The notes under the pieces are model-generated. The model saw only the letters and a list, made by a program, of their open reading frames with translations. It did no database searches and had not been told where the DNA came from. Shown piece by piece: positions 16,993 through 34,626 of a stretch of DNA of 34,671 bases. Position 1 is the stretch's first letter. Each line of letters begins with the position of its first letter. The stretch is from Burkholderiaceae bacterium. Its GTDB lineage: Bacteria > Pseudomonadota > Gammaproteobacteria > Burkholderiales > Burkholderiaceae_B. The stretch covers positions 1-34,671 of the forward strand of contig JAGOAJ010000030.1 of the NCBI GenBank assembly GCA_017983955.1. Reading direction: 5' to 3'. The position numbers and the translations under genes were made by a program.

Positions 16993-17040
16993 AATAATCG
17001 ATATTAATTATCCATTGATTCGCTCGAAGAGGAGTAACTC

Positions 17041-17508
17041 ATGAATCAACAACGCAGAAGCGTGCTCAAACTGGGCACTGTTTTAGGGCTGGCCGTATCG
17101 GCTGGCATCATGCTGCCCGAGCAAGCTTGGGCAGCTCAGCAGGAATGGGACAAAGGCTTGTTCAGCGCCACGGACGTCGACGGAGTCGTTAAGGCCCTGG
17201 GCGGTGCAAAGCCTGCCGACAGCGACAAGATTTCGTTGAACGCTCCTGATATCGCCGAGAACGGCGCTGTCGTGCCCGTGGGTGTCGTCAGCGACATCCC
17301 TGGCACAACACAGATTTCCATTCTGGTTCCTGCCAACCCGAACACCATGACAGCCATGTTCGAGATCTCTGCTGATGGCGTGGCCGATGTGGCTACCCGC
17401 ATCAAAATGGGTCAAACCTCGGACATCTACGCCTTGATCAAGGCCGATGGCAAATACTATATGGCGCACAAAGAAGTCAAGGTAACCCTTGGCGGTTGCG
17501 GCGGCTAA
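17041..17508 (+). CDS. soxY: Sulfur carrier protein SoxY
   Basis: SoxY carries the sulfur intermediate covalently on a C-terminal swinging arm. The 155-residue protein has a Tat-like leader starting NQQRRSVLKLG (Arg5-Arg6) and ending near AWAAQ. It finishes exactly with GGCGG, in which Cys153 is the attachment site. A strong GAGGAG precedes the ATG. It follows soxD after 48 bases and is followed by soxZ, its heterodimer partner. Confidence 0.96.
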   Translation: MNQQRRSVLKLGTVLGLAVSAGIMLPEQAWAAQQEWDKGLFSATDVDGVVKALGGAKPADSDKISLNAPDIAENGAVVPVGVVSDIPGTTQISILVPANPNTMTAMFEISADGVADVATRIKMGQTSDIYALIKADGKYYMAHKEVKVTLGGCGG

Positions 17509-17538
17509 GTCATACTGAATTAACGAAAGGAGCAAAAC

Positions 17539-17853
17539 ATGGCAACTAGGCCTATGCGCATTCGTGCTGTCGAAAAAGACGGCATCACCGAAGTCAAAGT
17601 CTTGATGAGTCACATCATGGAAACCGGTCAACGTAAAGACGGCGAAGGCAATGTTGTGCCTGCCCACTTTATTGATCTGGTCGAAGCCAAGTGCAACGAT
17701 AAAACCGTCATGAACGCTCAGTGGGGTCCTGCAGTTTCCCGCGATCCGTTTTTGGCGTTTAAGTTCAAAGGCGGTAACAAAGGGGATAAAGTTACTGTCT
17801 CCTGGCGCGACAACAAGGGCGAGACCCGCACTGATACAGCTGATATCCGTTAA
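17539..17853 (+). CDS. soxZ: SoxYZ complex subunit SoxZ
   Basis: SoxZ forms the soluble periplasmic heterodimer with SoxY and probably leaves the cell with it, because it has no signal peptide of its own. The 104-residue protein starts ATRPMRIRA, continues with EVKVLMSHIMETGQRKD, and ends with the immunoglobulin-like strand region KGDKVTVSWRDNKGETRTD, all typical of SoxZ. AAAGGAGC precedes the ATG. A strong stem-loop follows before soxA. Confidence 0.95.
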   Translation: MATRPMRIRAVEKDGITEVKVLMSHIMETGQRKDGEGNVVPAHFIDLVEAKCNDKTVMNAQWGPAVSRDPFLAFKFKGGNKGDKVTVSWRDNKGETRTDTADIR

Positions 17854-17873
17854 ATCACGGTTTTAGACGACGG

Positions 17874-17898
17874 CCTTATCGTTTTTTTAACGATAAGG
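17874..17898 (+). other. Stem-loop between soxZ and soxA
   Basis: CCTTATCGTT (17874-17883) pairs perfectly with AACGATAAGG (17889-17898) around a TTTTT loop, and outer CGG/CCG bases can extend it past a two-base bulge. No T-run follows the stem, so it is not a standard terminator. It sits 22 bases before soxA and may mark an mRNA processing or stability site that sets the ratio of SoxYZ to SoxAX. Confidence 0.7.
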
Positions 17899-17920
17899 TT
17901 CCGCCAAAGGGGACAACATA

Positions 17921-18742
17921 ATGAAAAACAGAATTCTAGGTATTTCTGTACTGATGCTGGGTGGCGCTATGGCGTCCCTAAGCGGCGCGTATGCCGCTGA
18001 AAGCACAGCCGATGGCATCGCCGCTTACCGCGAGATGCTGGGTGAAGGGGGCAACCCCGCTGAACTGACTGAAATGGCCGGTGAAGACCTTTGGACGCAA
18101 GCCATGGGTACAAAAAACGCCACTTTGGAACAGTGCGATCTGGGCATGGGTCCAGGGGTGATCAAAGACGCTTACGCACATCTGCCGCGCTACTTTGCTG
18201 ACACCGATCGCGTAATGGATCTGGAAACACGCTTGCTGCATTGCATGGACACCCTGCAAGGTGTCGATACAGCAGCTGTCGTTAAAAAAGCAGTGTCTGG
18301 CGCAGGTGACTACGCTTCCGACATGGAGTCCCTGGTCGCTTATGTGGTCGCTGCTTCACGCGGAACCACTATCGCCGTGCCCCAGGAACACCAGCAGGAA
18401 AAAGACGCGTACGCACGTGGCAAGCAGATTTTTTACTTCCGCGGCGGTCCTTACGACTTCTCCTGTGCGTCCTGTCACAGCGTAACGGGTCAGCGCATCC
18501 GTTTGCAAGATCTTCCTAACCTGAATGAACCGGAATTGGCTCAGCGTGCCTATTCGTCATGGCCTGCGTATCGTGTTTCCCAAGGTGCCCTGCGTACTAT
18601 GCAATGGCGTCTGGGTGACTGCTTCCGTCAGCAGCGCATGCCTGTTCTTAAGTATGGCTCGCAAGCTTCCATAGACCTTACGGTGTATCTGGCTGCCAAT
18701 GCCAACGGCGGCGCAATGGATGCCCCCGGTCTGAAACGGTAA
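17921..18742 (+). CDS. soxA: L-cysteine S-thiosulfotransferase subunit SoxA
   Basis: SoxA with SoxX couples thiosulfate oxidatively to the SoxY cysteine. The 273-residue protein has a signal peptide ending SGAYAAE. It has one CxxCH heme site, CASCH (Cys182, Cys185, His186), and the active cysteine Cys234 in LGDCFRQQRMP. The N-terminal cytochrome domain keeps only isolated cysteines (Cys72, Cys108) where diheme SoxA proteins have a second heme, so this is a single-heme type. GGGG lies before the ATG, and soxX follows after 13 bases. Confidence 0.94.
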   Translation: MKNRILGISVLMLGGAMASLSGAYAAESTADGIAAYREMLGEGGNPAELTEMAGEDLWTQAMGTKNATLEQCDLGMGPGVIKDAYAHLPRYFADTDRVMDLETRLLHCMDTLQGVDTAAVVKKAVSGAGDYASDMESLVAYVVAASRGTTIAVPQEHQQEKDAYARGKQIFYFRGGPYDFSCASCHSVTGQRIRLQDLPNLNEPELAQRAYSSWPAYRVSQGALRTMQWRLGDCFRQQRMPVLKYGSQASIDLTVYLAANANGGAMDAPGLKR

Positions 18743-18755
18743 ACGGAGACTTGCC

Positions 18756-19406
18756 ATGAAATTATTTACGTATATTCCCGCAGCAGCCATAGTGCTGATG
18801 GCAGCTACGCCTGTCGCAGCCGCTGATAAATGGGTAGCTGGCACAGATTACGACGCCGTCGTCACCGAGATGAAAGCATCGTTTTCGGAAAAGAATGGCG
18901 CAGGTCTGGATCGTATTGATCAGTCCGATATGCAGAAAATCTGTTCGGCGACTCAAATGGAAGGCAAAGCGCTGACCAAAGAGCAATTCCAGCAGATTGC
19001 CAGCACAGCCAAGGCCAGTATCAAGTTGCCAGCCGACGGTCAGTTTCTGGGCGATTGGAAAGCCGGCGAGAAAGTCGCACAAAGCGGCCGTGGTTTACAG
19101 ACCTCGGACAAGCCTGGTGCAGCAGCTGGCGGCAACTGTTATGCCTGCCACCAAATGACCAAGGCTGAAATTTCCTTTGGTAACATAGGCACGTCTTTGT
19201 TGCACTACGGAAAACTGCGCGGCAACTCCAAGGAAATCATGGAGTACACCTGGGGTCGTATCTACAACTCGCATGCTTACGTGCCTTGCACTGTAATGCC
19301 ACGTTTTGGGGACGCCGGTATTCTTACCGAAGCCCAGATGAAAGACGTGATGGCATTGTTGTTTGATCCAGCGTCACCAGTTAATGATGATACGGTCACG
19401 CCCTGA
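18756..19406 (+). CDS. soxX: L-cysteine S-thiosulfotransferase subunit SoxX
   Basis: SoxX is the electron-accepting cytochrome c partner of SoxA. The 216-residue protein has a signal peptide ending TPVAAADK. Its heme site is NCYACH (Cys128, Cys131, His132) and its likely methionine ligand is Met181 in VMPRFG. The stretch of about 100 residues before the heme domain makes it a long SoxX form. It is placed directly after soxA, and a terminator-like hairpin follows the stop. Confidence 0.92.
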   Translation: MKLFTYIPAAAIVLMAATPVAAADKWVAGTDYDAVVTEMKASFSEKNGAGLDRIDQSDMQKICSATQMEGKALTKEQFQQIASTAKASIKLPADGQFLGDWKAGEKVAQSGRGLQTSDKPGAAAGGNCYACHQMTKAEISFGNIGTSLLHYGKLRGNSKEIMEYTWGRIYNSHAYVPCTVMPRFGDAGILTEAQMKDVMALLFDPASPVNDDTVTP

Positions 19407-19427
19407 CCTAAGCATCGTGTAGTTACC

Positions 19428-19470
19428 CCGGCGCGCTAACCCTTACAGGTAGGTGCGCCGGAATTTTTTT
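19428..19470 (+). terminator. Terminator-like hairpin between soxX and the thioredoxin gene
   Basis: CCGGCGC (19428-19434) pairs with GCGCCGG (19455-19461) across a 20-base loop that can itself pair partly (ACC with GGT), followed by AATTTTTTT. It looks like a complete intrinsic terminator. Unusually, the ribosome-binding site of the next sox-associated gene begins immediately after the T-run, so partial read-through or a processed transcript is likely. Confidence 0.8.
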
Positions 19471-19480
19471 AAGGATGGGC

Positions 19481-20008
19481 ATGATGTGGCTGAATAAGCT
19501 AGCTGTGTGGGGTGTAGGTCTGGGACTGGCGGTAAGTCTTTCAGTCACCAGCGTCGCTGCAACCGAGGTCGCAACTGCGCCGGTTGCCGGTGATACCCTA
19601 GTCTTGCCGGAAATTACCTTGTTTGACGGTACCCGTTTGCCCGAAGGTTATTATCAGGGCAAGCCGCTAATCATAGTGTACTGGGCGTCTTGGTGTCCGT
19701 TCTGTGCACGCCAGAATCCGTATGTTGAACAGTTATACGATAAGGCTCGCACCCAAGGTCTGGAAGTGCTGACTATCAGCATAGATCGCAAAGAATCCGA
19801 AGCCAGGGACTACATGGCCAAAAATAAATACACCTTTCCCGCGGCGATGCAGACACCAGAAATTCTGGCTGTCATGGGCAAACGACGCGTGATACCCAAG
19901 GTGTTTGTGGTTGGGGCTGATGGCAAAGTGGTTGAAGTCATCCCCGGTGAAATGTTCGAGGAAGACGTGCTTGATTTGATCAAGTATGCACCTAAACAAT
20001 CCAACTAA
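19481..20008 (+). CDS. Periplasmic thioredoxin-like protein (TlpA/SoxW type)
   Basis: A 175-residue exported thiol-disulfide protein. After a signal peptide or anchor (about 1-28), the thioredoxin fold carries YWASWCPFCARQNP with redox cysteines Cys72 and Cys75, and the cis-proline loop is RVIPKVFVV. The motif is WCPFC rather than the common WCGPC. Sox clusters often contain a thioredoxin (SoxS/SoxW) that keeps the SoxY cysteine reduced and active, so that role is likely here. Tandem ATGs occur at 19475, 19481 and 19484; AAGGA at 19471-19475 favours one of the latter two. Confidence 0.88.
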   Translation: MMWLNKLAVWGVGLGLAVSLSVTSVAATEVATAPVAGDTLVLPEITLFDGTRLPEGYYQGKPLIIVYWASWCPFCARQNPYVEQLYDKARTQGLEVLTISIDRKESEARDYMAKNKYTFPAAMQTPEILAVMGKRRVIPKVFVVGADGKVVEVIPGEMFEEDVLDLIKYAPKQSN

Positions 20009-20044
20009 TGGACTCGTGTTCATTATTTTCAAAGTGTGTTTTTT

Positions 20045-21757
20045 ATGATTAATCGTCGTGAGTTTTTACAAGTTTTAGCTGTCGCCGCTGCTGGTGGCAT
20101 GGGTTTGTCGCATAGCGCCAGGGCCGCCGATAAAGCGGCACAGTCGTTCTACGACTTGCCTAGCTTTGGTAATGTGCATTTTCTGCACTTTACGGACTGC
20201 CATGCCCAATTGCTGCCCATATATTTTCGTGAGCCCAGCGTTAACCTGGGTGTTGCAGGGGCTTTGAACCAGCCGCCACACTTGGTGGGCGAGAACTTCC
20301 TGAAACACTACGGCATACGTCCTGGCACGCCTGAAGCCTATGCCTTTACCTGCCTGGACTTTGCCAGTGCGGCTCGTCAATACGGCAAGATAGGCGGTTT
20401 CGCTCACTTGTCTACCCTGGTCAAGCAAATGCGTGCCAGCCGTCCCGGCGCCTTGCTGCTGGATGGCGGTGATACTTGGCAGGGTTCAGCCACGTCGTTG
20501 TGGACTAACGGCCAGGATATGGTTGACGCGTGCAAGTTGCTGGGCGTGGATATCATGACCGGGCACTGGGAATTTACCTTGGGTGCGGAACGTGTCCAGG
20601 AAATCATCGAAAACGATTTCAAAGGCAAGCTGGACTTTGTTGCGCAGAACGTAGAGACTGCCGACTTTGGCGACCCTGTATTTGAACCCTACACCATACG
20701 TGAAATGAATGGTGTGCCGGTGGCTGTTATCGGTCAGGCCTTCCCCTACACGCCTATCGCCAACCCCCGCTACATGGTGGCTGACTGGACCTTTGGCATA
20801 CAAGAAGCCAACCTGCAGAAGATGGTGGACGAAGTACGCGGAAAGGGTGCACAGGCAGTGGTGCTGCTGTCGCATAACGGCATGGACGTGGACTTGAAGC
20901 TGGCGTCACGCGTTCGTGGCCTGGACGCCATTATGGGTGGTCATACCCACGATGGCATACCCGCACCTGTTGTGGTCAGCAATGGCGGTGGCAAGACTCT
21001 GGTCACTAACGCCGGTAGCAACAGTAAATTCTTGGGCGTGCTGGACTTTGATGTTCAGAACGGCAAAGTAGTTGATTTCCGCTACAAGCTGATGCCGGTC
21101 TTTGCTAACTACCTCGACGCCGATCCTGAAATGGACGCCTTGATCCAGAAAACGCGTGCGCCGTTTGCTGCAAAACTGGCAGAACCTTTGGCTGTTACAG
21201 ACGAAGTGCTGTACCGCCGTGGTAATTTTAATGGCACATTCGACCAGGTCATACTGGATGCGCTGATGGCTGAAAAAGAAGCACAGATCGCGTTCTCGCC
21301 AGGCTTCCGTTGGGGTACCAGCCTGTTGCCTGGCGATACCATTACTATGGATCACTTGATGGATCAGACCGCCATCACGTACCCAGCCACGACGTTGAAC
21401 GAAATGACGGGCGCACAGATCAAGGTCATCCTTGAAGACGTGGCCGATAACTTGTTCAATGCCGACCCTTATTACCAACAGGGCGGCGACATGGTCAGGG
21501 TGGGTGGCATGCAGTACAGCATAGACCCCTTGGGCGCAGCAGGTCAGCGCATCTACGACATGTCGCTGGGCGGCAAGTCCATAGACGCAGACAAGACTTA
21601 TAAAGTCGCTGGCTGGGCGCCGGTTGCTGAAGGTGTCGAAGGCGAGCCCATCTGGGACGTGGTTGGCCGCTATTTGCGCGACAAGAAGACCATTAGCGGT
21701 ATCGAGCTGAATCAACCCCATGTTAAGGGTGTTGAAGGCAATCAAGGACTAGTTTAA
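20045..21757 (+). CDS. soxB: S-sulfosulfanyl-L-cysteine sulfohydrolase SoxB
   Basis: SoxB is the dimanganese hydrolase that releases sulfate from the thiosulfonate on SoxY. The 570-residue protein begins with a twin-arginine leader, INRREFLQVLAVAAAGG. It shows the metallophosphatase motifs in order: HFTDCHAQ (Asp51, His53), LDGGDTWQGS (Asp143), GHWEFT (His174), LSHNGMDVD and GGHTHDG, followed by the 5'-nucleotidase C-terminal domain. ATG at 20045 is preferred over a GTG at 20036, since the Tat arginines then fall at residues 4-5. No strong Shine-Dalgarno sequence is visible. Confidence 0.95.
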   Translation: MINRREFLQVLAVAAAGGMGLSHSARAADKAAQSFYDLPSFGNVHFLHFTDCHAQLLPIYFREPSVNLGVAGALNQPPHLVGENFLKHYGIRPGTPEAYAFTCLDFASAARQYGKIGGFAHLSTLVKQMRASRPGALLLDGGDTWQGSATSLWTNGQDMVDACKLLGVDIMTGHWEFTLGAERVQEIIENDFKGKLDFVAQNVETADFGDPVFEPYTIREMNGVPVAVIGQAFPYTPIANPRYMVADWTFGIQEANLQKMVDEVRGKGAQAVVLLSHNGMDVDLKLASRVRGLDAIMGGHTHDGIPAPVVVSNGGGKTLVTNAGSNSKFLGVLDFDVQNGKVVDFRYKLMPVFANYLDADPEMDALIQKTRAPFAAKLAEPLAVTDEVLYRRGNFNGTFDQVILDALMAEKEAQIAFSPGFRWGTSLLPGDTITMDHLMDQTAITYPATTLNEMTGAQIKVILEDVADNLFNADPYYQQGGDMVRVGGMQYSIDPLGAAGQRIYDMSLGGKSIDADKTYKVAGWAPVAEGVEGEPIWDVVGRYLRDKKTISGIELNQPHVKGVEGNQGLV

Positions 21758-21776
21758 GCCCCTTACGGAGATAGTT

Positions 21777-22235
21777 ATGATCAAGATTCGACGCTTTATG
21801 TTTGCAACAGCGGCTGTGCTGTCTATGGTTGGCGCCAGCGCCCAGGTCGCGACAGCAGCGACCGAGACCACCGCCGTTGCGGCTCAGCGCGCCAAAGTGG
21901 TTTATCACATCAATGATGCTGCCAGCCAGGCGTTAGCAGGTTTGCGCAATATGCGTAATCACCTGGATACTGCGCCTGACACGGATATCAAAGTGGTAAT
22001 CCATGCCAACGGCGTAGAGTTCATGATGACCGACTACCCAGATGCCGCCACAGTGGCACCCTTGGTGTCTGCCTTGGCTTCACGTGGCGTGAGCTTTGAA
22101 GTGTGTGAAATCACCCTCAAGAACAAAAAGCTGTCCAAGGATCAATTCATCCTTGAAACAGACTTTGTTCCTTCGGGTGTGGTTCGCCTGACCGAGCTGC
22201 AAAACCAGCAGGGCTATGCCTACCTTAAGCCCTGA
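21777..22235 (+). CDS. Exported DsrE/DsrF-like protein
   Basis: A 152-residue protein with a signal peptide (MIKIRRFMFATAAVLSM to about AATA, residue 28) and a DsrE-fold domain: VVYHINDAASQALAGLRNMRNHLD, IKVVIHANGVEFMM, and FEVCEITLKNKKL. The only cysteine is Cys110 in the position where DsrE-type sulfur carriers bind sulfur. Its place 19 bases after soxB suggests a periplasmic sulfur-binding or trafficking role in the Sox system. That role is inference; no reaction can be assigned. Confidence 0.82.
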   Translation: MIKIRRFMFATAAVLSMVGASAQVATAATETTAVAAQRAKVVYHINDAASQALAGLRNMRNHLDTAPDTDIKVVIHANGVEFMMTDYPDAATVAPLVSALASRGVSFEVCEITLKNKKLSKDQFILETDFVPSGVVRLTELQNQQGYAYLKP

Positions 22236-22244
22236 TTTTTGGGT

Positions 22245-23450
22245 TTAGCTTAGCCAGTGTTGTAAATCGTAGTAGGGGACGACATCACCGTTCTTTACTA
22301 CGGTATTTACTGGTATACGGGCCAGTCCGTCGGCCCAAGGCAGCGAATTGATAATCGCTGATCCCTGCATGGGATGTGGTGCCAGCAATATGCCCTGATC
22401 TGGGCTAAAGCTGGCTTGCACCCTAAGGAATTCCTCGCGGGTCTCACAGAATTGCCTGTCTGTGGATAGCTTGCCGTAATGTATAGGCGGCATAATATCC
22501 GAGCGCCCCTGCATGGTGCGCATCAAGGGCGACACCAATAAACTAAACACCACAAAGGCCGACACCGGATTACCCGGTAGGCAAATAATGGGTTTGTTAC
22601 GCGCATAGGCCAGGGCCACGGGCTTGCCCGGCTTCATGCAGACTCGCCATAAATCCAGCACGCCACCCATTTCTTCTATGGTGGGCTTGACCAGGTCTTT
22701 TTCACCTACGGATACGCCACCCACGGTAAGGACCAGATCGCAATCGTTTAACGCGGTTTCAAAGGCCGTATGCAGCGATGCTGACGTATCCAAGGCGTGC
22801 AGCACATGAATAATCTGAGCACCCATAGCGCCGGCCAGTGCCGCCAGCATAGGACCATTGGAGTTGTATATTTGACCGGTAACCAACACCTGGCCAGGGT
22901 TGGCTAGTTCGTCGCCAGTGGTGATTATGCCTATTTTCAGCGGGGCATAGACAGGGATTTCAGGGTAACCCTGGGACGCCAGTAAGCTGATTTCAGCGCC
23001 GCTTAGCAAGGTGCCTTTGGTGAACAGCTGTTTGCCTTTGAGCACATCTTCGCCTTGCAGGCGCACATGATCGCCTAGCGTGGGTGGGACGCTGATTTCA
23101 AAGCCTTGGTCAGTTTCATTGCCGTTTTCCTGCATGACTATGGTGTCTGCGCCTGCAGGCATCAGGCTGCCGGTAAACACGCGTATAGTGTTGCCGGGTT
23201 GCAGGGCCTGGGGCGTATCGCCAGCAAAACAACGCTGTTGTACCGGCAGGCGTGCGCCGGGAGCGTAATCGGCATAACGTATGGCGTAGCCGTCCATGGC
23301 GCTGTTGTCGGCGGGCGGCAGGTCCAGAGTGGCGAACAGAGTCTGGGCCAGCACACGCCCGCGTGCTTGAGCCAAAGGACAAACTTCTGTTATGGCGGGT
23401 GGATGGCCCGCACTTGCCAGGCGAGCCTGAGCGACATCAAAATCTAGCAT
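22245..23450 (-). CDS. moeA: Molybdopterin molybdenumtransferase
   Basis: MoeA inserts molybdate into adenylylated molybdopterin, the final step to molybdenum cofactor. The 401-residue protein has the N-terminal block LPPADNSAMDGYAIR (about 44-58), IRVFTGSLMPAGADTIVMQE (about 88-107), the MoCF-domain motifs GIITTGDEL, TVGGVSVGEKD and MKPGKP, and the C-terminal beta-barrel domain IV. It is the last gene of moaC-moaD-moaE-moeA, four bases after moaE, and converges with the sox cluster whose SoxC needs this cofactor. Confidence 0.95.
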   Translation of the reverse strand: MLDFDVAQARLASAGHPPAITEVCPLAQARGRVLAQTLFATLDLPPADNSAMDGYAIRYADYAPGARLPVQQRCFAGDTPQALQPGNTIRVFTGSLMPAGADTIVMQENGNETDQGFEISVPPTLGDHVRLQGEDVLKGKQLFTKGTLLSGAEISLLASQGYPEIPVYAPLKIGIITTGDELANPGQVLVTGQIYNSNGPMLAALAGAMGAQIIHVLHALDTSASLHTAFETALNDCDLVLTVGGVSVGEKDLVKPTIEEMGGVLDLWRVCMKPGKPVALAYARNKPIICLPGNPVSAFVVFSLLVSPLMRTMQGRSDIMPPIHYGKLSTDRQFCETREEFLRVQASFSPDQGILLAPHPMQGSAIINSLPWADGLARIPVNTVVKNGDVVPYYDLQHWLS

Positions 23451-23454
23451 AGTG

Positions 23455-23943
23455 TTATTTCTCTGGGGTGGAGCCTAGTTCCCATTCGGCAGTTTTGCCG
23501 GCGTCGGCATCGCGTTGCTGTACCCAGAAACGTTTACCGCTGGCCAGGGTTTCGCGTTTCCAGAATGGGGCTCGTGTTTTTAAGGCGTCTATCAGGTATT
23601 CGCAAGCCTTGAAGGCATCGCCACGGTGGGTGCTGGCGACAGCGACGAAGACGATTTGTTCTTTGTGATGCAGTTCGCCGACGCGATGCACTACCAGGCA
23701 TTCCTGTATAGGCCAGCGTTCCAGGGCCGTATCGCACAAGGATTGAATTTCACGTTCGCACATCCCCGGGTAGTGTTCCAGAAATAGCGTGCGAGTTGCG
23801 TCGTCGTCGGTGTAGTCGCGCACATAACCCGTGAATGTGACCATGGCTCCGGCTTGCCCGGCGCTACGTTCGCGCAAGCCCGCGGTAAGGGCGGCGGCAT
23901 CGAAGTCGGCTTCTTGAACAATAACCATATCAGCAATAACCAT
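23455..23943 (-). CDS. moaE: Molybdopterin synthase catalytic subunit
   Basis: MoaE transfers sulfur from MoaD thiocarboxylate to precursor Z, making molybdopterin. The 162-residue frame contains GAMVTFTGYVRD, TLFLEHYPGMCEREI, VVHRVGELH, VAVASTHRGDAF and the active-site lysine block APFWKRE. The N-terminus is ambiguous: a 15-base tandem duplication creates two almost identical starts (ATG at 23943 and at 23928, residues MVIAD then MVIVQ). The second fits usual MoaE beginnings equally well. The first ATG lies one base after the moaD stop. Confidence 0.93.
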   Translation of the reverse strand: MVIADMVIVQEADFDAAALTAGLRERSAGQAGAMVTFTGYVRDYTDDDATRTLFLEHYPGMCEREIQSLCDTALERWPIQECLVVHRVGELHHKEQIVFVAVASTHRGDAFKACEYLIDALKTRAPFWKRETLASGKRFWVQQRDADAGKTAEWELGSTPEK

Positions 23944-23949
23944 ATCAGC
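23919..23949. repeat. 15-bp tandem duplication at the moaD-moaE junction
   Basis: The unit CAATAACCATATCAG occurs twice head to tail with no mismatch, covering the end of moaD and the start of moaE. It duplicates the moaE start codon, the two codons after it and the TGAT before it. It looks like a recent slippage event. Confidence 0.9.
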
Positions 23950-24199
23950 CGCCTGTGACCGGTTCGAATACGGCGAGCTCGTCGCCCGGACGTATCAGTT
24001 CATCATGCTTTACATGATACTGATTGATGGCCAGTTTTAAACGCGCAACTGGTGCCAGTTGGGGGTAGCGAGCTTCAAGCTCAATCAGCCATTCGGTGCC
24101 GCTGATGGCGTCTTCAAGGGGCCAGTTTTCTTCGCGTAATCCGGTCAGTTCGGCTATCTGCGCAAAATACAAAACCTTAATTGTTGTGCCAGTCGCCAC
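23945..24199 (-). CDS. moaD: Molybdopterin synthase sulfur carrier subunit
   Basis: MoaD is the ubiquitin-like sulfur donor of molybdopterin synthase. The protein ends in the required Gly-Gly (EPVTGG) and begins TIKVLYFAQIAELTG, as MoaD proteins do. I chose the GTG at 24199 (84 residues) because GGAGG lies five bases upstream. The next ATG in frame (24238) would add 13 residues that lie inside moaC and do not look like MoaD. The gene overlaps the end of moaC by 23 bases. The tandem duplication at its 3' end leaves the Gly-Gly terminus intact. Confidence 0.9.
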   Translation of the reverse strand: MATGTTIKVLYFAQIAELTGLREENWPLEDAISGTEWLIELEARYPQLAPVARLKLAINQYHVKHDELIRPGDELAVFEPVTGG

Positions 24200-24674
24200 T
24201 TTTTCCTCCGGATTTGAAATGCAGTCGTATGTCTTCAATGACTATGCCTTTGTCGGCGGCCTTGCACATATCGTAAATAGTCAGTGCTGCCACGCTGCAT
24301 GCTGTCATGGCCTCCATTTCGACGCCGGTTTTGTAGTCGGTGCGGCAGGTGGCCTGTATAGTGATGCTGTTGCTGGCTTCATCGGGCAGGAATTCTATGC
24401 CTATAAAGCTTAGCGGCAAGCTATGGCATAAGGGGATCAGGTCTGCGCAGCGTTTAGCGGCCAATACGCCAGCGACGCGGGCTGTGTTCAGCACTTCGCC
24501 TTTGGCGTTTTCAGCAGCAGATAGCAATTTCCAAGCTGTGCTGCCCATACGCACCCTAGCGTGCGCAACGGCGGTACGCTGGGTAGGGGCTTTGTTGCTG
24601 ACATCGACCATCTGGATTTTGCCGGACTCGTCAACGTGAGTCAGGCCGGATTCGGACGTAGTAGTAGTGCTCAT
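24177..24674 (-). CDS. moaC: Cyclic pyranopterin monophosphate synthase
   Basis: MoaC, with MoaA, converts GTP into precursor Z in the first stage of molybdenum cofactor synthesis. The 165-residue protein has MVDVSNKAPTQRTAVA (about 22-37), the KRCADLIPLCHSLPLS block (about 74-89), and the active-site segment YDMCKAADKG with Asp135 and Lys138. The N-terminus runs about 10 residues longer than E. coli MoaC. It is first in the mo operon; moaA and mobA are not in the window. The 93-base gap to the divergent peroxiredoxin gene must hold the promoter, but no clear -35/-10 pair stands out. Confidence 0.95.
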   Translation of the reverse strand: MSTTTTSESGLTHVDESGKIQMVDVSNKAPTQRTAVAHARVRMGSTAWKLLSAAENAKGEVLNTARVAGVLAAKRCADLIPLCHSLPLSFIGIEFLPDEASNSITIQATCRTDYKTGVEMEAMTACSVAALTIYDMCKAADKGIVIEDIRLHFKSGGKSGDWHNN

Positions 24675-28653: not shown

Positions 28654-28879
28654 CTTGATTTTTTGCTGAAGTTCGTCTTATTTACGCTAATGATTAACTA
28701 ACTTCTTCTAATTTCTGTTAATTATTTGATATTCACTATTTGTTGATAGGTAATTTTGGCAGGCAAAGAATGGTTACCAAATGAAACTACCGCAGGCGCG
28801 GATATCATATGGCCTTTAGCTAGCGCTGATTGGCAGTTTTCATAGCGTGGGCAGCGGAATTACTTTTGGAGCGGCAATC

Positions 28880-29284
28880 ATGAAGTTTGAACGCAAAACC
28901 ACAATAGAGTGGGGTGATTGCGACGATGCAGGGATAGTGTTTTATCCGAAGTTTTTTTATTGGTTTGATTGCACCTGGCAAGCCATGTTGCGGTCACATA
29001 GCCTTAGTCAACGCAAAATTCGAAGCCAATATGGCGCGGTAACGCCCTTGGTGGATGTGGGCGCTACCTTTCGTTCCCCAGCGACCTATGATGACATCAT
29101 CACCATACAGGCTGAAATTACAGAATGGGCCAGTCGTCGCCTGCGAATTGAATACGTCATTACCTGCGAAGACAGGCTAATTGCTACGGGATTCGAGGTG
29201 CGGGCCTGGGCTATGCCCTTGCCCGAGGGCGGGCTTAAAGGTGCGGCCATTCCAGAAGACTTCAGCGCCTTGTTTCAGGCCTGA
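28880..29284 (+). CDS. Hotdog-fold acyl-CoA thioesterase (4-HBT/YbgC type)
   Basis: A 134-residue hotdog protein. The N-terminal motif WGDCDDAGIVFYPKFFYWFD contains the catalytic aspartate (Asp15 by alignment to 4-hydroxybenzoyl-CoA thioesterase), followed by VDVGATFRSPATYDDIITIQAEI. It hydrolyses an acyl-CoA, possibly aromatic, but the substrate is not determined by the sequence. The ATG at 28880 has GGAGC eight bases upstream and is preferred to a start at 28847. It stands alone on the + strand between two - strand operons. Confidence 0.88.
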   Translation: MKFERKTTIEWGDCDDAGIVFYPKFFYWFDCTWQAMLRSHSLSQRKIRSQYGAVTPLVDVGATFRSPATYDDIITIQAEITEWASRRLRIEYVITCEDRLIATGFEVRAWAMPLPEGGLKGAAIPEDFSALFQA

Positions 29285-29312: not shown

Positions 29313-30098
29313 TCACGCTGCGCTGGGGCTGCGGGTCCAATATTCATAGAGCTTTTGCGCTAAGCCGTCCAGCAAAAAACCTAGCGCGCCAATAACGACA
29401 ATAACCGCCATCAATTCTGAATAGGCCAGGCGGTCGCGGGTGTCCAGGATAAAGTAGCCTAGCCCAGAGCTAACCCCCAGCATTTCGCAGGGCACCAGCA
29501 CTATCCAGATGATGCCGATTGCCAGGCGCGCGCCCGTAAGTATGTGTCCCAGTATGCCCGGCAGCACAATAGTGAACAGTACCTCACGACGGGTGGCGCT
29601 AAGGCTTTTAGCCAATAATAGCCATTTAGGGTCCAGCTGCCGCACGCCTGCTGCCGTATTTAATATCACAGGCCAGATGGCGGCAAAGGTCAACAAAAAG
29701 TAGATGGGCGCATCGCCTATGCCAAATACCATGACCGCTATTGGCATCCACGACAACGGCGAAATCATACGCAGAAACTGGAAGGCGCTACCGGTACAGT
29801 TTTCCAGGAATTTTGATGATCCTATGGCTATGCCTATGGGTACACCCAGCAGTAGTGCCAGCGCCAGACCGACCAAGACCCGCTTCATGCTGGTCAAGGC
29901 ATGTACGGTTAGCTGGTTTTCCGCTAGCAGCTCGTACAGGCTTAGCAGGGTGGCGCCAGGACTAAGCAGGCTGGCCAGGCTGACCCGGTCTTGCAGGCTA
30001 TAGGTACCCAAGCCCCACAGCACTATCAGGGCAAGCAGGCCGCTTAGACTTAGGGCAATGCGTCTGTTGGACGATGATAGTGTCAGTCGTTTCGTCAT
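29313..30098 (-). CDS. ABC transporter permease (SsuC/NrtB type)
   Basis: A 261-residue inner-membrane permease of a nitrate/sulfonate/taurine-class importer, with about six helices. The cytoplasmic coupling loop is AAGVRQLDPKWLLLAKSLSATRREVLFTIVLPGILGHILTGARLAIG (read in pieces, about 148-193), containing the usual EAA-type pattern. I placed the start at the ATG at 30098, four bases after the solute-binding protein stop. A longer frame overlaps that gene. It is the last gene of the six-gene operon starting at 34094. Confidence 0.9.
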   Translation of the reverse strand: MTKRLTLSSSNRRIALSLSGLLALIVLWGLGTYSLQDRVSLASLLSPGATLLSLYELLAENQLTVHALTSMKRVLVGLALALLLGVPIGIAIGSSKFLENCTGSAFQFLRMISPLSWMPIAVMVFGIGDAPIYFLLTFAAIWPVILNTAAGVRQLDPKWLLLAKSLSATRREVLFTIVLPGILGHILTGARLAIGIIWIVLVPCEMLGVSSGLGYFILDTRDRLAYSELMAVIVVIGALGFLLDGLAQKLYEYWTRSPSAA

Positions 30099-30102
30099 GG
30101 CG

Positions 30103-31302
30103 CTAGGTAGTGATAGTTTCCTGGCGGCTGTAGGACTCTGGCAAGCCAAACACTGACATACCTCCCTGAGCAGCGATGGCTTTTTTCACGAAACGGTCAT
30201 CGACCAGATCTTGCGCGACAAATGCAGGGTCCAGGTCTTGCAGGAAGTCGTTTTTGCCGGACACTAAGGTGGTTTTCAGCTTTCTGACCAATTCTTCGGT
30301 GTAGCTGGGGAAGGGATAGGGTTGGAAGTCTATGCGTTTTTCTTGCCAGCTGGTGTTGACGATGGCCCCTGATGCCTGGTAGTGGGCTGCGTCCATAAGT
30401 TCAGGCACTAGAACCTGGGCCAAGGCTTCATAGGAATGCGGGGTGTAGCGCTGTGGGTTGTCCTTGGATAGTATCTGGGCGGTCTGGTCGCGGTTGTCTT
30501 GTATCCAGGCCTGGGCCTGCACTATGCCGTTAACCACTTTCTGCGTCCATTCCGGCCGTTGCTCCAGGTCTTGTTCGTGCATCAGGACAACGCAGCAGGC
30601 GTGATCCTTCCAGACGTCCCCGGTAAAACGCAGAATCTTGCCGATTTTCATGACTTCGGCCGAAGCGTTAAAGGGTTCAGCAACCGTGTAGCCAGCGATG
30701 TGTTTGCTGGCCAATGCCGGCAGCATGTCCGACGGCGCCATGACCACCAGCTTCACTTGCTTGGGTCCGGGCTCGCCATTGCTGATGGCTTGCAGGCCTT
30801 TGCTGGTCAATAAGTGCTGTAGCACCACATTATGCAGTGAATACCAGAATGGGATAGCGACGGTTTTACCGCCCAGGTCAGCGACATCATTGATTTCATG
30901 CTGCACGGTTAGGCCAGAACCCGACATATGGTTCCATGCCACGACTTTGGCGCGTGACTGGCTGCCGTAGCGTGCCCACACGGTCATAGGGGATAGCAGA
31001 TGGACCGCATTGACCTGTCCGGCCAGAAAGGCTTCCACCAACTGTGCCCAGCTACGAAACAAACGTGGTTTTTCGACCTGCAGGCCTTGCGCTTCAAACA
31101 GCTTATTGTGGTGGCCCACCAGCAAGGGTGTGGCGTCGGTAACGGGTAAATAGCCTATGCGCAATGGTGCATCAGGTTCTGCTGCCCTGGCCTGGGCGTG
31201 CATATTCAGCAGGGGCAGGGCACCCATGGCGGTGAATAAGCTGGATAGCTTGATGAATTGGCGGCGGGTCGCAATAGACTGGGCATTTAGTCGTTTTGTC
31301 AT
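30103..31302 (-). CDS. Solute-binding protein of ABC importer (NrtA/SsuA family)
   Basis: A 399-residue exported binding protein. A twin-arginine leader, IATRRQFIKLSSLF (about 10-23), ends near MHAQARAAE. The mature part begins LRIGYLPVTDATPLLVGHHN, followed by FLAGQVNAVHLLSPMTVWA and IPFWYSLHNVVLQHLL, the last resembling the SMHN segment of nitrate/bicarbonate binders. The leader suggests export in folded form. The ligand cannot be read: nitrate, sulfonates, cyanate-like or amine compounds are all handled by this superfamily. It lies between the ATPase and permease genes. Confidence 0.88.
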   Translation of the reverse strand: MTKRLNAQSIATRRQFIKLSSLFTAMGALPLLNMHAQARAAEPDAPLRIGYLPVTDATPLLVGHHNKLFEAQGLQVEKPRLFRSWAQLVEAFLAGQVNAVHLLSPMTVWARYGSQSRAKVVAWNHMSGSGLTVQHEINDVADLGGKTVAIPFWYSLHNVVLQHLLTSKGLQAISNGEPGPKQVKLVVMAPSDMLPALASKHIAGYTVAEPFNASAEVMKIGKILRFTGDVWKDHACCVVLMHEQDLEQRPEWTQKVVNGIVQAQAWIQDNRDQTAQILSKDNPQRYTPHSYEALAQVLVPELMDAAHYQASGAIVNTSWQEKRIDFQPYPFPSYTEELVRKLKTTLVSGKNDFLQDLDPAFVAQDLVDDRFVKKAIAAQGGMSVFGLPESYSRQETITT

Positions 31303-31344
31303 TGGTAGCTCTTATAGTCAGGACGGGGAAGCCTTGTAGCCACT

Positions 31345-32166
31345 TTAGGCAGCAAGGACGGCGCGCGGGGCTGTGATGCCTCGGGCGATACGTAACGATT
31401 GCATGATGTCGACTCTGATGCGTGTCAGTTCGGGGCTGATAATATCGTGAGGGCGGGATTGGGATATCGACCATTCGGCGATCAAACGACCTGGCGACTG
31501 TCCAATCAGCAAGATGCGGTCGGCCAGTATTAGCGCCTCATCAATATCATGGGTAACAAGTATGGCCGAGGCATGGCGCCGGGCGGTGATCTGCTGCAAT
31601 AGGGTTTGCATCTCCCCGCGAGTGATTTCGTCTAAAGCGCTGAATGGCTCATCCAGCAGCAATATGTCTGGTTGACGCGCCAGACTGCGGGCCAGGGCAG
31701 CGCGTTGCGCCATACCTCCCGATAGCTCCGCAGGGTAGCGCTGTTTGGCATTTTGCAGGTCAACTTCAGCGATGGCGTCGTGTACACGTGATTTTTTCTG
31801 GGCTTTGCTGATGTCGGGCTGATGGGTGAAATCCAGGCCGAATGCGACATTTTCTTCCAGGGTCAGCCACGGCAGTAAACAAGGGTCCTGGAAAACAAAG
31901 CCTAGTCTAGGATGCGGACCCAACAGTGGCTGGCCCTGGACCCGTACACTGCCCCGGTCAGGAGGCTGCAGGCCTGCCAGCACACGTAACAGCGATGATT
32001 TCCCTACCCCACTGGGACCCAGTACTGCCAGGATTTCGCCTTGTGTCAGATGCAAGGCGAAATCGCGCAACACAACGTGTGACTCCTGATTGGGCAGCTG
32101 ATAGCTAAGCTGTATATCGTCGGCGTCCAAGATAATCGACTGATGCGTAGCATGTGGGATGGCCAT
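31345..32166 (-). CDS. ABC transporter ATP-binding protein (SsuB/NrtD type)
   Basis: The 273-residue ATPase has Walker A GPSGVGKSS, Q-loop FVFQDPCLLPWLTLEENV, signature LSGGMAQRAALARSLA, Walker B ILLLDEPFSALD and the switch histidine VTHDIDEAL. The Q-loop with LLPW is typical of the sulfonate/taurine/nitrate importers. It starts ten bases after the rubredoxin stop and is followed by the binding protein after 42 bases, making one operon. Confidence 0.92.
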   Translation of the reverse strand: MAIPHATHQSIILDADDIQLSYQLPNQESHVVLRDFALHLTQGEILAVLGPSGVGKSSLLRVLAGLQPPDRGSVRVQGQPLLGPHPRLGFVFQDPCLLPWLTLEENVAFGLDFTHQPDISKAQKKSRVHDAIAEVDLQNAKQRYPAELSGGMAQRAALARSLARQPDILLLDEPFSALDEITRGEMQTLLQQITARRHASAILVTHDIDEALILADRILLIGQSPGRLIAEWSISQSRPHDIISPELTRIRVDIMQSLRIARGITAPRAVLAA

Positions 32167-32176
32167 AGTGTCTGTC

Positions 32177-32341
32177 CTAATCTGGAATTAGAAAGAAGTC
32201 GGCTTTGCTGACGCCGCAGTCGGGGCATACCCAGTCGTCGGGTATGTCTTCAAATCGCGTACCCGGGGCAATGCCGTCTTCGGGCATGCCCAGGGTCTCG
32301 TCGTAGACCAGGCCGCAGGGACTGCACATCCACTGTTTCAT
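32177..32341 (-). CDS. Rubredoxin
   Basis: A 54-residue iron protein with the two conserved knuckles [11 protein letters not shown] (Cys6, Cys9) and [13 protein letters not shown] (Cys39, Cys42) that bind one iron, and the usual [12 protein letters not shown] between them. Rubredoxins carry single electrons in the cytoplasm. The ATG overlaps the stop of the upstream flavoprotein gene by one base (TGATG), so the two are almost certainly translated together. This makes a specific electron-transfer partnership likely. No rubredoxin reductase is in the window. Confidence 0.95.
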
Positions 32342-33504
32342 CAGGCGGCCTGTATGGTGGCTGGTGTTGATGCGTGGGGAGTCGTTAGTAGCTGTTGTGC
32401 AGCTAATTCCAGGTCGTGGATTTCTTTGCGTAGGTGTTTCAGGGCGGGCGTAACAATGGCGACAAATACGGCTTCGCGTAAACGACGTTGTGCTGGGTGG
32501 CGCATTAGGTAGCCTTTGGCGCCTGCATGCAATACGGCGGAATTGGCGGCCTTTAAAACAAGCTCAGAGGCCTGGGCGCGTGCTTTTAGCACATCCAGCA
32601 TGGCAGGCTGCCCCGTATGCGTTTGACGGGCCAGCGCAGCTGTCTGGGCCTTTAACGTGTCAAGCTCAGCCGCCAGCTCGCCCTCCTGGTCATCCAGGAA
32701 GATATTGGTGTGTGAAGAACTGGCGTTGCTTTCACGCAAAGTTTTCAGGCTACTTGCGGTGATGCCAAAGGCCATGCCGGTCTGGCCCAGAATAAAGCCA
32801 GGCTTGATACGACTAATGTAGTGTTTAAATTCGGCTGGATGGGCCAGCGCATCATTTGTGGGAACCCTGACGTTTTTGAAGCGTAAATTCAATGTTTGCG
32901 TGCCTTCCAGGCCGGCAAACTCGGGGCAATTATGCATCGTCAGGCCATCAGTGGCGCAAAGTACCGGCAGCATGGCATAGCCTTCGCCTTCCACAGCGAC
33001 GGCTACTATGACCAAGTGGCCGTCCCCTACATTGGATACCCAGGGTAATGAGCCATTGATAACATAATCATCGCCATCACGGGTCGCGGACAAGTGGATC
33101 TTTTCTATGCCTGCCAGGTGCTTGATGGCGTTGGACATGCCTGTGCCTGCCAGCAATGCGCCACTGGCTACCTGTTGCAGATAACGTTCGCGCAAGCCTT
33201 GGTTGGCGGTATGCAGAAAATACCAGGCGCAACTGGCTTGGCACCACGCTAAAAAACTGGTGGAGCCACATTCAGCCGCAATGGCGGTGTTGATGTCTAT
33301 CTGGGTGGCCAAATCCAGTCCCTGGCCGCCATATTCTGTGGGTATGGCAGCGTTGAATCCGCCTAGGCGTCCCAGTTCCCGCAGGTAATCGGCTGGGTAT
33401 AAGCCTTCTGTGTCTATGGCGGAGCTTATGGGGGCTAAAGCAGTTTTGACGTGGTCAGAAATGGCGCTGACCAGAGCGGTGCTTGCGACAGGTGAACTCA
33501 CCAT
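32341..33504 (-). CDS. Acyl-CoA-dehydrogenase-fold flavoprotein
   Basis: A 387-residue member of the acyl-CoA dehydrogenase superfamily: [17 protein letters not shown] near residue 50, [10 protein letters not shown] and [14 protein letters not shown] in the middle domain, and the C-terminal helix region [22 protein letters not shown]. The usual YEGT-like motif carrying the catalytic glutamate is absent; the corresponding stretch reads [14 protein letters not shown]. That points to a flavin monooxygenase-like (DszC/SfnB-type) or otherwise altered chemistry rather than fatty-acid beta-oxidation. The ATG at 33504 has AAGGA six bases upstream. It is the second gene of the operon and directly coupled to rubredoxin. 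Confidence 0.85.
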
Positions 33505-33551
33505 GCTATTCCTTGCTAGATACTGGAGTAAAGCGTACTGGGGTGTAACAG

Positions 33552-34094
33552 TCAAGCGTAAGCTTGCAGTTCTGGGTTGATGGGATTTTGGGCTACATTG
33601 TTGGCGTAATTGCACAATGTGGCCAAACTGATGCCCAATACCACTTCCAGCACCTGGGCCTGGTTGTAACCAGCAGCCAGAAAGTCATGAAGCTGGGCGT
33701 CGGCAATCTGGCCTTTGCTTTCCATGACAGCCTGGGTGAACTGAGCCAAGGCGTTAAGCTTAGGATCGTTCAATGCCTGGGTGGTGCGCAGGGCTAGAAT
33801 CAGCTCTTCGGGCATGGCCAATTTTTTGCGAGCAATGGCGGTATGGCCTGCTACGCAAAATCCACAACCATTCAATACGGCTGCGGTAATTTGTATGACT
33901 TCGCGTTCGGCGGCGCTTAGGCTGGTGCGGGCATTGATGGCGCCCACGACTTGATAAGTTTCCAAGGCTGTAGGCGCATTGGCCAGAACACCGATCAGAT
34001 TGGGTAGGAAACCGTTATTTTTTTGGGCATTAAGAACGCGTTCTTTGGCGAGCTCTGGGGCGCTGTCGGCGGTTTGTATGGTCAAGCGACTCAT
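33552..34094 (-). CDS. AhpD/carboxymuconolactone decarboxylase-family protein
   Basis: A 180-residue all-helical protein with the AhpD-type active site LNGCGFCVAGH: Cys77, Cys80 and His84, with Glu65 twelve residues ahead as in AhpD. Such proteins act as disulfide reductants or peroxidases, or use the fold for other small-molecule chemistry. As first gene of the operon it may reduce a peroxide or disulfide formed by the neighbouring flavoprotein. It could instead be a catalytic partner; the sequence does not decide. It is followed by the flavoprotein gene after 47 bases. Confidence 0.9.
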   Translation of the reverse strand: MSRLTIQTADSAPELAKERVLNAQKNNGFLPNLIGVLANAPTALETYQVVGAINARTSLSAAEREVIQITAAVLNGCGFCVAGHTAIARKKLAMPEELILALRTTQALNDPKLNALAQFTQAVMESKGQIADAQLHDFLAAGYNQAQVLEVVLGISLATLCNYANNVAQNPINPELQAYA

Positions 34095-34148: not shown

Positions 34149-34182
34149 TTATACCAAAAGATTATGAAGCAATTAGGTTATG
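34149..34182. promoter_or_regulatory. TTAT(G/A) repeats upstream of the AhpD-like operon
   Basis: TTATA at 34149 and TTATG at 34162 and 34178 recur at spacings of 13 and 16 bases, with a further TTATG at 34191 after another 13. They lie 55-100 bases before the first gene of the operon, where an activator would bind. Regularly spaced TTAT half-sites recall CysB-type regulators, but the pattern is weak and could be chance in AT-rich DNA. Confidence 0.25.
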
Positions 34183-34258
34183 CAAATTTGTTATGGGGTG
34201 CTGTGACAGGCAAAGTGTCATAGAGTGCGGCTACGCTAGTTGGTAGCGTAAAAATGAC

Positions 34259-34299: not shown

Positions 34300-34376
34300 T
34301 GGCGGAGCGGACGGGACTCGAACCCGCGACCCCCGGCGTGACAGGCCGGTATTCTAACCAACTGAACTACCGCTCC
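34300..34376 (-). tRNA. tRNA-Asp (anticodon GTC)
   Basis: The 77-base - strand sequence folds as tRNA-Asp: acceptor GGAGCGG pairing with CCGCTCC, D-arm AGTTCAGTTGG, anticodon loop CTGTCAC with GTC (plus positions 34340-34342), the T-arm GGTTCGAGTCC, discriminator G and an encoded CCA end. It is the last tRNA of the three-gene unit. Confidence 0.97.
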
Positions 34377-34405
34377 GCAGCGGTGTACTACTATGCCAAA
34401 AAAAC

Positions 34406-34481
34406 TGGCGTCCCCTAGGGGATTCGAACCCCTGTACCCACCGTGAAAGGGTGGTGTCCTAGGCCTCTAGACGAAGGGGAC
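34406..34481 (-). tRNA. tRNA-Glu (anticodon TTC)
   Basis: The 76-base - strand sequence starts GTCCCCTTCGTCTAGAGG, has anticodon TTC (plus positions 34445-34447) in a CTTTCAC loop, the T-arm GGTTCGAATCC, discriminator G and an encoded CCA. The acceptor stem GTCCCCT/AGGGGAC is fully paired. Confidence 0.97.
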
Positions 34482-34500
34482 CGGACAAAACTAGCCTTAG

Positions 34501-34506
34501 ATTATA
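34501..34506 (-). promoter_or_regulatory. Candidate -10 box of an internal tRNA-Glu promoter
   Basis: On the - strand a perfect TATAAT lies 19 bases before the 5' end of tRNA-Glu in the 69-base AT-rich spacer after tRNA-Ala. No convincing -35 hexamer is found 16-18 bases further upstream, so independent transcription of tRNA-Glu and tRNA-Asp is only possible, not shown. Confidence 0.3.
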
Positions 34507-34550
34507 ACATACAAATTTTATACGTTATGACCAAATACTTCGCTGATTAC

Positions 34551-34626
<76 letters not shown>

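Follow-up and report, generated by a model that had tools for sequence, protein, structure and literature searches.

An importer–flavoenzyme operon of a Burkholderiaceae bacterium, conserved across phyla, that probably serves sulfur acquisition, with thiocyanate as a candidate cargo

The 34,671-nucleotide contig JAGOAJ010000030.1 of a Burkholderiaceae bacterium, analysed over its whole length and called the window here, carries an operon that combines an ATP-binding cassette (ABC) importer with a flavoenzyme of the acyl-CoA dehydrogenase (ACAD) fold, a rubredoxin and an AhpD-like thiol protein. Six open reading frames run head to tail on the minus strand at 29313-34094; all were confirmed, and a sequence-only reading of this DNA had given their order, spacings (-1 to 47 bases) and protein families correctly. 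In the direction of transcription, the features are:

34150..34183, minus strand: AT-rich box 5' of the first gene, a candidate site for a promoter or regulator (seven upstream regions aligned)
33552..34094, minus strand: AhpD-like protein of the carboxymuconolactone decarboxylase family, with CGFC (Pfam CMD, 4e-14)
32341..33504, minus strand: ACAD-fold flavoenzyme with GTGxSNxxK and IVTPA motifs (Pfam Acyl-CoA_dh_N, 2e-16)
32177..32341, minus strand: rubredoxin, a probable electron carrier, whose start overlaps the ACAD stop as TGATG (Pfam Rubredoxin, 6e-22)
31345..32166, minus strand: ATPase of the ABC importer (Pfam ABC_tran, 6e-34)
30103..31302, minus strand: binding protein of the ABC importer, with a signal of the twin-arginine translocation (Tat) type and the pocket motif HACC (H234, C236, C237) (Pfam NMT1_2, 1e-45)
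29313..30098, minus strand: permease of the ABC importer (Pfam BPD_transp_1, 2e-23)

The intergenic gaps, in the same order, are 47, -1, 10, 42 and 4 bases. Both the TGATG overlap between flavoenzyme and rubredoxin and the CxxC of the AhpD-like protein, two details of the earlier reading, were found as described. ATG starts were taken for the flavoenzyme, where a longer GTG reading to 33615 would overlap the preceding gene, and for the permease, where an alternative TTG reading begins at 30149. Spacing and conservation suggest that the six genes form one transcript. The source genome comprises 3.32 Mb in 62 contigs and is 94.5% complete; among the relatives listed, the nearest named ones belong to Alcaligenaceae, such as Pollutimonas.

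A pattern scan with one genome per species listed at least 581 relatives, whose flavoenzyme, where an annotation was seen, is called acyl-CoA dehydrogenase. We used the best 80, which lean towards the window's branch, as loci for comparison; genes were counted by tblastn, independently of gene calling, and neighbouring families were confirmed by Pfam on one or two representatives each. Some loci stop at contig ends, so the gene counts are lower bounds. The common set consists of a thiol protein, the ACAD-fold enzyme and often a rubredoxin, followed by ATPase, binding protein and permease, and occurs in proteobacteria, cyanobacteria, Deinococcus, Thermomicrobium and one actinobacterium, the hosts including free-living and sulfur-oxidising bacteria. 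Binding protein, permease and ATPase were found in 69, 62 and 64 loci, respectively, a sigma-54 regulator in 24, cyanase in 21 and rhodanese in 6. Its recurrence in the same order in several phyla shows that the arrangement is not a matter of chance, and the search for co-occurrence of the six genes thus bears out the conserved transport-plus-redox unit that had been proposed from this one stretch: the set is conserved well outside the source strain. Within the taxonomic order of the source, an ACAD match with an E value of 1e-60 or better was present in 33 of 399 genomes and 20 of 159 genera (the window's genome counted), and the distribution is therefore sporadic. We found no description of the six-gene operon in the open-access literature, most subscription papers lying outside the search, and it apparently is uncharacterised though widely conserved.

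The predicted structure of the flavoenzyme (predicted local distance difference test score, pLDDT, 95.4) has the ACAD fold, with a template modelling (TM) score of 0.85 and 21% identity to human short-chain acyl-CoA dehydrogenase (2vig); binding of flavin adenine dinucleotide is assumed from this fold. The protein stays below every NCBIfam cut-off, its top model being acryloyl-CoA reductase (91 of 640 bits), while the SfnB model TIGR04022 and the DszC model gave 42.9 of 430.9 and 35.4 of 850 bits. It is single-copy in the source genome, where nine other ACAD matches are at most 28% identical to it. N125, K128, T352 and P353 are invariant in 53 aligned members. In all 53, N125 and K128 replace the signature (T/S)E-x-x-(A/G)GSD, whereas all four comparison ACADs of the same genome read SE or TE and then GSD or AGSD. 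None of the 53 has a Glu at the EGT position within 349-355, T352 standing there in every case, and the alternative ER column holds F or M in five printed family rows. Each of the four own-genome ACADs has a Glu at one of these two positions, which we take to be the known catalytic-base sites of acyl-CoA dehydrogenases. Since both the signature and the EGT Glu are replaced by other invariant residues, the flavoenzyme is, as far as sequence can tell, a separate conserved ACAD-fold family to which the name acyl-CoA dehydrogenase does not fit.

An importer of the window's type (type A, defined below) is also found together with a related flavoenzyme on plasmids from Agrobacterium, Roseomonas, Bartonella, Variovorax, Thermomicrobium, Deinococcus, Pseudonocardia and Synechococcus elongatus. 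Eight such plasmid-borne flavoenzymes are 22-29% identical to the window's, and six of them keep S124, N125, K128, E134, R343, E344, T352 and P353; the Thermomicrobium protein lacks S124, N125, K128 and E134, and the Pseudonocardia protein S124, N125, K128 and T352. The position of C79 is Ser in five of the eight. In some loci a DUF302 protein lies directly 3' of the ACAD gene (5/80 by tblastn; for example L055 7168-7560, assigned by Pfam).

No flavin reductase gene is present in the operon, which has rubredoxin instead. A rubredoxin was counted in 35 of the 80 loci, a rubredoxin fused to a pyridine-nucleotide reductase in 19, and either in 46. Together with the overlap of the ACAD and rubredoxin genes, these counts suggest that electrons more likely run from reduced nicotinamide adenine dinucleotide (NADH) to rubredoxin and on to the flavoenzyme; it is the reductase fusions that argue for this direction. 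The rubredoxin can hardly be called private, as it had been, given that the source genome has a second rubredoxin gene (G000:C2:48917-49072).

Two types of importer accompany the flavoenzyme. Type A, the window's, is encoded in the order ATPase, binding protein, permease, with binding proteins at least 40% identical to the window's; type B is CynA/NrtA-like, in the order binding protein, permease, ATPase, with identities of about 25-31%. We assigned 43 loci to type A and 26 to type B, and 11 had no importer in view. The window's binding protein begins with the twin-arginine-type motif RRQFIK and scores best in NCBIfam, under the cut-off, as SsuA family. Its model is nearest to 3un6 from Staphylococcus aureus, NrtA and CmpA (TM by query length 0.62-0.71), with lower values for SsuA and TauA (0.50-0.56). 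At the position of the NrtA motif HPEK, the lysine of which is presumably the nitrate-binding residue, the window's protein has HACC. All 14 type-A proteins compared and all 11 CynA-type ones, of which two come from cynABDS loci without an ACAD in view, carry HxCC here; none of four nitrate-type proteins does, and NCBIfam, applied to one of their four loci, identified NirB there. The nearest solved relative, PDB 3un6, keeps the CC pair (AYCC) and mentions zinc in its title; it may carry a similar kind of cargo.

The thiol-protein slot is filled in different ways. AhpD was found in 42 loci, OsmC in 31, neither in 7 and both in none, so that the two occupy the same slot and are mutually exclusive across the 80 loci. 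DUF4242 takes the slot in 8 of 11 cyanobacterial loci and also in Thermomicrobium and Pseudonocardia, while the Bartonella locus has no protein there. The closest solved relatives of the window's AhpD-like protein are 3lvy and 6e8l (E about 1e-63), which we take to be streptococcal AhpD proteins. On an ACAD tree of 85 rows, with L089 and L135 left out (both are included in the counts over 80 loci), the thiol slot changed between AhpD and OsmC at least twice, and there were five changes of importer type, nine of cyanase and fourteen of rubredoxin; L148, L155 and L157 are coded there as cyanase-less only because their loci end short, and cyanase was seen in wider stretches of L155 and L157 (as L170 and L171).

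Several neighbourhoods point to sulfur. In the window, soxC, soxY, soxA, soxX and soxB all score above their cut-offs, at a distance of roughly 7.5 to 15 kb to the operon. Rhodanese adjoins or lies near type-A operons in L073, L076, L211, L229 and L230, and cyanobacterial locus L227 carries on one strand TauD, redoxin, carbonic anhydrase, DUF4242, ACAD, ATPase, binding protein, permease and sulfatase. On plasmid pANL of Synechococcus elongatus PCC 7942, the operon follows genes for carbonic anhydrase, a catalase-family protein, an MgtC-like protein, a chromate transporter, cysK (cysteine synthase) and gamma-glutamyltransferase. The accessible part of one source describes pANL as encoding many sulfur-related genes and srpI as induced by sulfur starvation (PMC8049743). 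Flavoenzyme, ATPase, binding protein and permease have the same order on pANL as in the window, the binding proteins are 55% identical, and the pANL flavoenzyme keeps C79, W87, C88, S124, N125, K128, E134 and T352; in contrast to the window, DUF4242 replaces AhpD, the operon has no rubredoxin, and the flavoenzymes are 23% identical.

A sulfur-scavenging design is also familiar from the ssu, msu and sfn operons, where an importer of the SsuA-like superfamily likewise stands beside a flavoenzyme. The operon would work like ssu/sfn-type scavenging, yet its proteins fall outside SfnB, NrtA and acyl-CoA dehydrogenase as these are defined: rubredoxin takes the place of the flavin reductase, the SfnB and DszC scores are far under cut-off, and the binding protein is closer to NrtA and CmpA. 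The ACAD fold is that of group-D flavoprotein monooxygenases, according to the available part of PMC13352529, and a corresponding activity of the window's enzyme is predicted by analogy with them. Taken alone, the conclusion that the operon serves sulfur acquisition is one we consider quite probable. The small nitrogen- or sulfur-containing compound of the sequence-only reading is thereby narrowed to what is most likely a sulfur source, with signs of a pseudohalide resembling cyanate or thiocyanate.

These signs come from cyanase, the pocket motif and the NrtA- and CmpA-like fold of the binding protein. Many ACAD relatives lie in or beside cynABDS cyanate operons, and the window's binding protein shares HxCC with theirs; the window differs in its type-A importer, in lacking cyanase anywhere in its genome and in the 24-32% identity to type-B binding proteins. 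A type-A importer occurs together with cyanase in L071, L156, L170 and L171. Within the Thioalkalivibrio genus group, a type-A protein was present in 15 of 30 genomes, with a CynA-type protein about 4 kb away in 13 of these 15. In Thioalkalivibrio locus L170, the flavoenzyme and its own type-A importer stand beside a complete cynABD-cynS; L172 has cyanase with no cynABD between, and L171, where gene calls are rougher, has cyanase and a type-B permease. From these loci, the type-A cargo is probably not cyanate itself but a compound that makes cyanate handling necessary when it is broken down. The simplest sulfur source with cyanate as a product would be thiocyanate, which is a plausible candidate since both the sulfur and the pseudohalide lines fit it. 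A binding protein linked to thiocyanate dehydrogenase was also sought in Thioalkalivibrio, and the six stretches obtained held nitrate-type and plain cynABDS loci only. At the three Thioalkalivibrio loci L170, L171 and L172, a GGDEF-EAL protein with a phosphonate-binding-protein-like domain adjoins cyanase (L170 12622-14850, L171 4077-6632, L172 4026-6614).

We therefore propose thiocyanate as the cargo in the following scheme. The type-A importer, with its Tat-exported binding protein, would take up a small anion that contains sulfur, thiocyanate (SCN-) being the most likely one. A cytoplasmic ACAD-fold flavoenzyme, reduced by NADH through rubredoxin reductase and rubredoxin, would cleave the C-S bond with oxygen, as a group-D flavoprotein monooxygenase does, and the products would be cyanate and sulfur in an oxidised or zero-valent form. 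In the window the AhpD-like protein, and elsewhere OsmC or DUF4242, may handle a peroxide, sulfenyl or persulfide by-product. Sulfur would enter assimilation, and cyanate would be hydrolysed where cyanase exists; any cyanate made in cyanase-less AhpD-type genomes would have to be lost or otherwise handled. What the sequences show is the gene set and its conservation, the lost acyl-CoA dehydrogenase motifs, the exchange of thiol protein and importer, the sulfur and cyanase neighbours and the pocket motif; substrate, reaction, electron direction and the role of the thiol protein are what we infer, and the proposal as a whole, with thiocyanate as cargo, is tentative, in our estimate falling somewhat short of probable.

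A number of observations weigh against it. Cyanase favours type-B importers (19/26 loci) and not type A (1/43); it is absent from the source genome and, among 25 AhpD-type genomes searched (for 25 of 42 such loci), was missing in 24. As a marker of the cyanate pathway, cyanase is judged unreliable in PMC6504805, where thiocyanate-oxidising Thioalkalivibrio are reported without cyanase activity too. Nor is rubredoxin the fixed part of the set that the sequence-only reading made of it, being in view only at the 46 loci counted above. In 21 genomes, picked mostly because the operon showed none, a rubredoxin was found somewhere in 18 and not in three (two metagenome-assembled genomes and one isolate). 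No close dedicated rubredoxin reductase was found in the source genome, the sole match being 30% identical, with a dioxygenase ferredoxin reductase as its best model, below the cut-off. No importer is in view at several Neisseria-type loci, the sulfur response described for pANL is that of srpI and not of its ACAD and ABC genes, and the window's branch could use another sulfur anion.

This last point leads to the strongest competitor, in which the operon scavenges some other small anion of sulfur or an organosulfur compound (a short sulfonate or sulfinate might be one), and the link to cyanase is confined to the OsmC/type-B branch. The sulfur neighbours of type-A operons suit it, and so do the near absence of cyanase from type-A loci and AhpD-type genomes, the weak similarity of the flavoenzyme to the SfnB and DszC models and the sub-cut-off SsuA score of the binding protein. 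It accounts less readily for the HxCC motif common to window-type and CynA-type proteins, for a binding-protein fold closer to NrtA and CmpA than to SsuA and TauA, for the four loci that have a type-A importer with cyanase, and for the five changes of importer type on the ACAD tree; we regard it as a serious possibility, if on balance a doubtful one. A flavoenzyme that makes cyanate from cyanide or from a nitrile-like compound, as a nitrogen supply or for detoxification, would explain the cyanase and rhodanese genes of the 80 loci. Hydrogen cyanide enters cells without need of an ABC importer, however, and the binding protein is present in 69 loci; with the sulfur neighbours and a source genome devoid of cyanase, this makes a cyanide pathway improbable.

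The fold group of the binding protein, that of NrtA and CmpA, could instead indicate uptake of nitrate, nitrite or a nitro compound for an enzyme resembling nitroalkane oxidase. Replacement of HPEK by HACC or HPCC disfavours import of nitrate or nitro compounds, as do the sulfur neighbours, and we think such a role very unlikely. A similarly slight chance is given to oxidant defence in mucosal bacteria, for instance against hypothiocyanite, in which AhpD and the flavoenzyme would act together as reductases and the importer would be an accessory: several Neisseria-type loci do keep AhpD, ACAD and rubredoxin without an importer, and the AhpD is close to solved AhpD proteins of streptococcal type, but most other loci have the importer and the hosts include free-living and sulfur-oxidising bacteria. 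That the enzyme is an ordinary fatty acyl-CoA dehydrogenase passing electrons to electron-transferring flavoprotein (ETF) would agree with its fold and Pfam family. The replaced catalytic and signature motifs in 53 of 53 members rule this out for practical purposes, so that neither of the two findings that the sequence-only reading named as refuting it has come true, and the low identity to the other ACAD matches of the genome and the conserved operon with its importer leave it with hardly any weight.

Were the thiocyanate proposal true, it would reveal an unrecognised route to thiocyanate or a similar small sulfur anion in many bacteria, including free-living sulfur oxidisers and cyanobacteria, and would account for the company of importers, rubredoxin, cyanase and rhodanese in which this large ACAD-fold family is found. 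Rubredoxin would then feed an ACAD-fold enzyme directly; the electron partners of this fold known to us are ETF, oxygen or free flavin. Thiocyanate hydrolase is a cobalt enzyme related to nitrile hydratase. Thiocyanate dehydrogenase is a periplasmic copper enzyme, as stated in the part of PMC5744179 available, and a published hydrolase cluster also has a NitT/TauT-family importer and cyanase, going by the accessible text of PMC5328954. The proposed substrate is the same as in these clusters, yet neither enzyme is an ACAD-fold flavoprotein. A thiocyanate oxygenase of the ACAD fold, located in the cytoplasm, reduced by rubredoxin and supplied by its own importer, could be a third thiocyanate route beside the copper dehydrogenase and the cobalt hydrolase. 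It would serve several phyla in assimilating sulfur and, where cyanase is present, nitrogen, and rubredoxin would be a direct electron partner new to the ACAD fold; a claim of this breadth is possible, though we would lean against it. An ACAD has been linked to rubredoxin in Fusobacterium, whose butyryl-CoA reductase is fused to EtfA and rubredoxin (PMC12288474, from the portion accessible). That protein is a true butyryl-CoA enzyme sending electrons out through a flavodiiron protein, whereas the window's has lost the acyl-CoA motifs. Compared with a chain like that of alkane hydroxylase, the window has the rubredoxin in the operon, and a reductase fused to rubredoxin appears in 19 of the 80 loci, with no close dedicated one found in the source genome.

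The AT-rich box at 34150-34183 has a similar, partly conserved counterpart in six aligned relatives. At the stringency used, no second copy was found in three Pollutimonas genomes, and with the box at the operon alone we do not infer a regulon. Three transfer RNA genes (Asp, Glu, Ala; 34300-34626, minus strand) lie just upstream of the operon, and a YbgC/FadM-like thioesterase gene (28847-29284) is convergent with its end. Among the sequences consulted, Neisseria gonorrhoeae NZ_CP119140.1 and NZ_CP119142.1 are filed as plasmids, yet at about 2.17 Mb they are chromosome-sized. Further along the window, 14502-22235 is a Sox thiosulfate-oxidation cluster of soxC, a diheme cytochrome (soxD-like), soxY, soxA, soxX, a redoxin, soxB and a DsrE-like protein. 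SoxC is a molybdoenzyme, and the molybdopterin genes moeA, moaE and moaC adjoin the cluster at 22245-24674.

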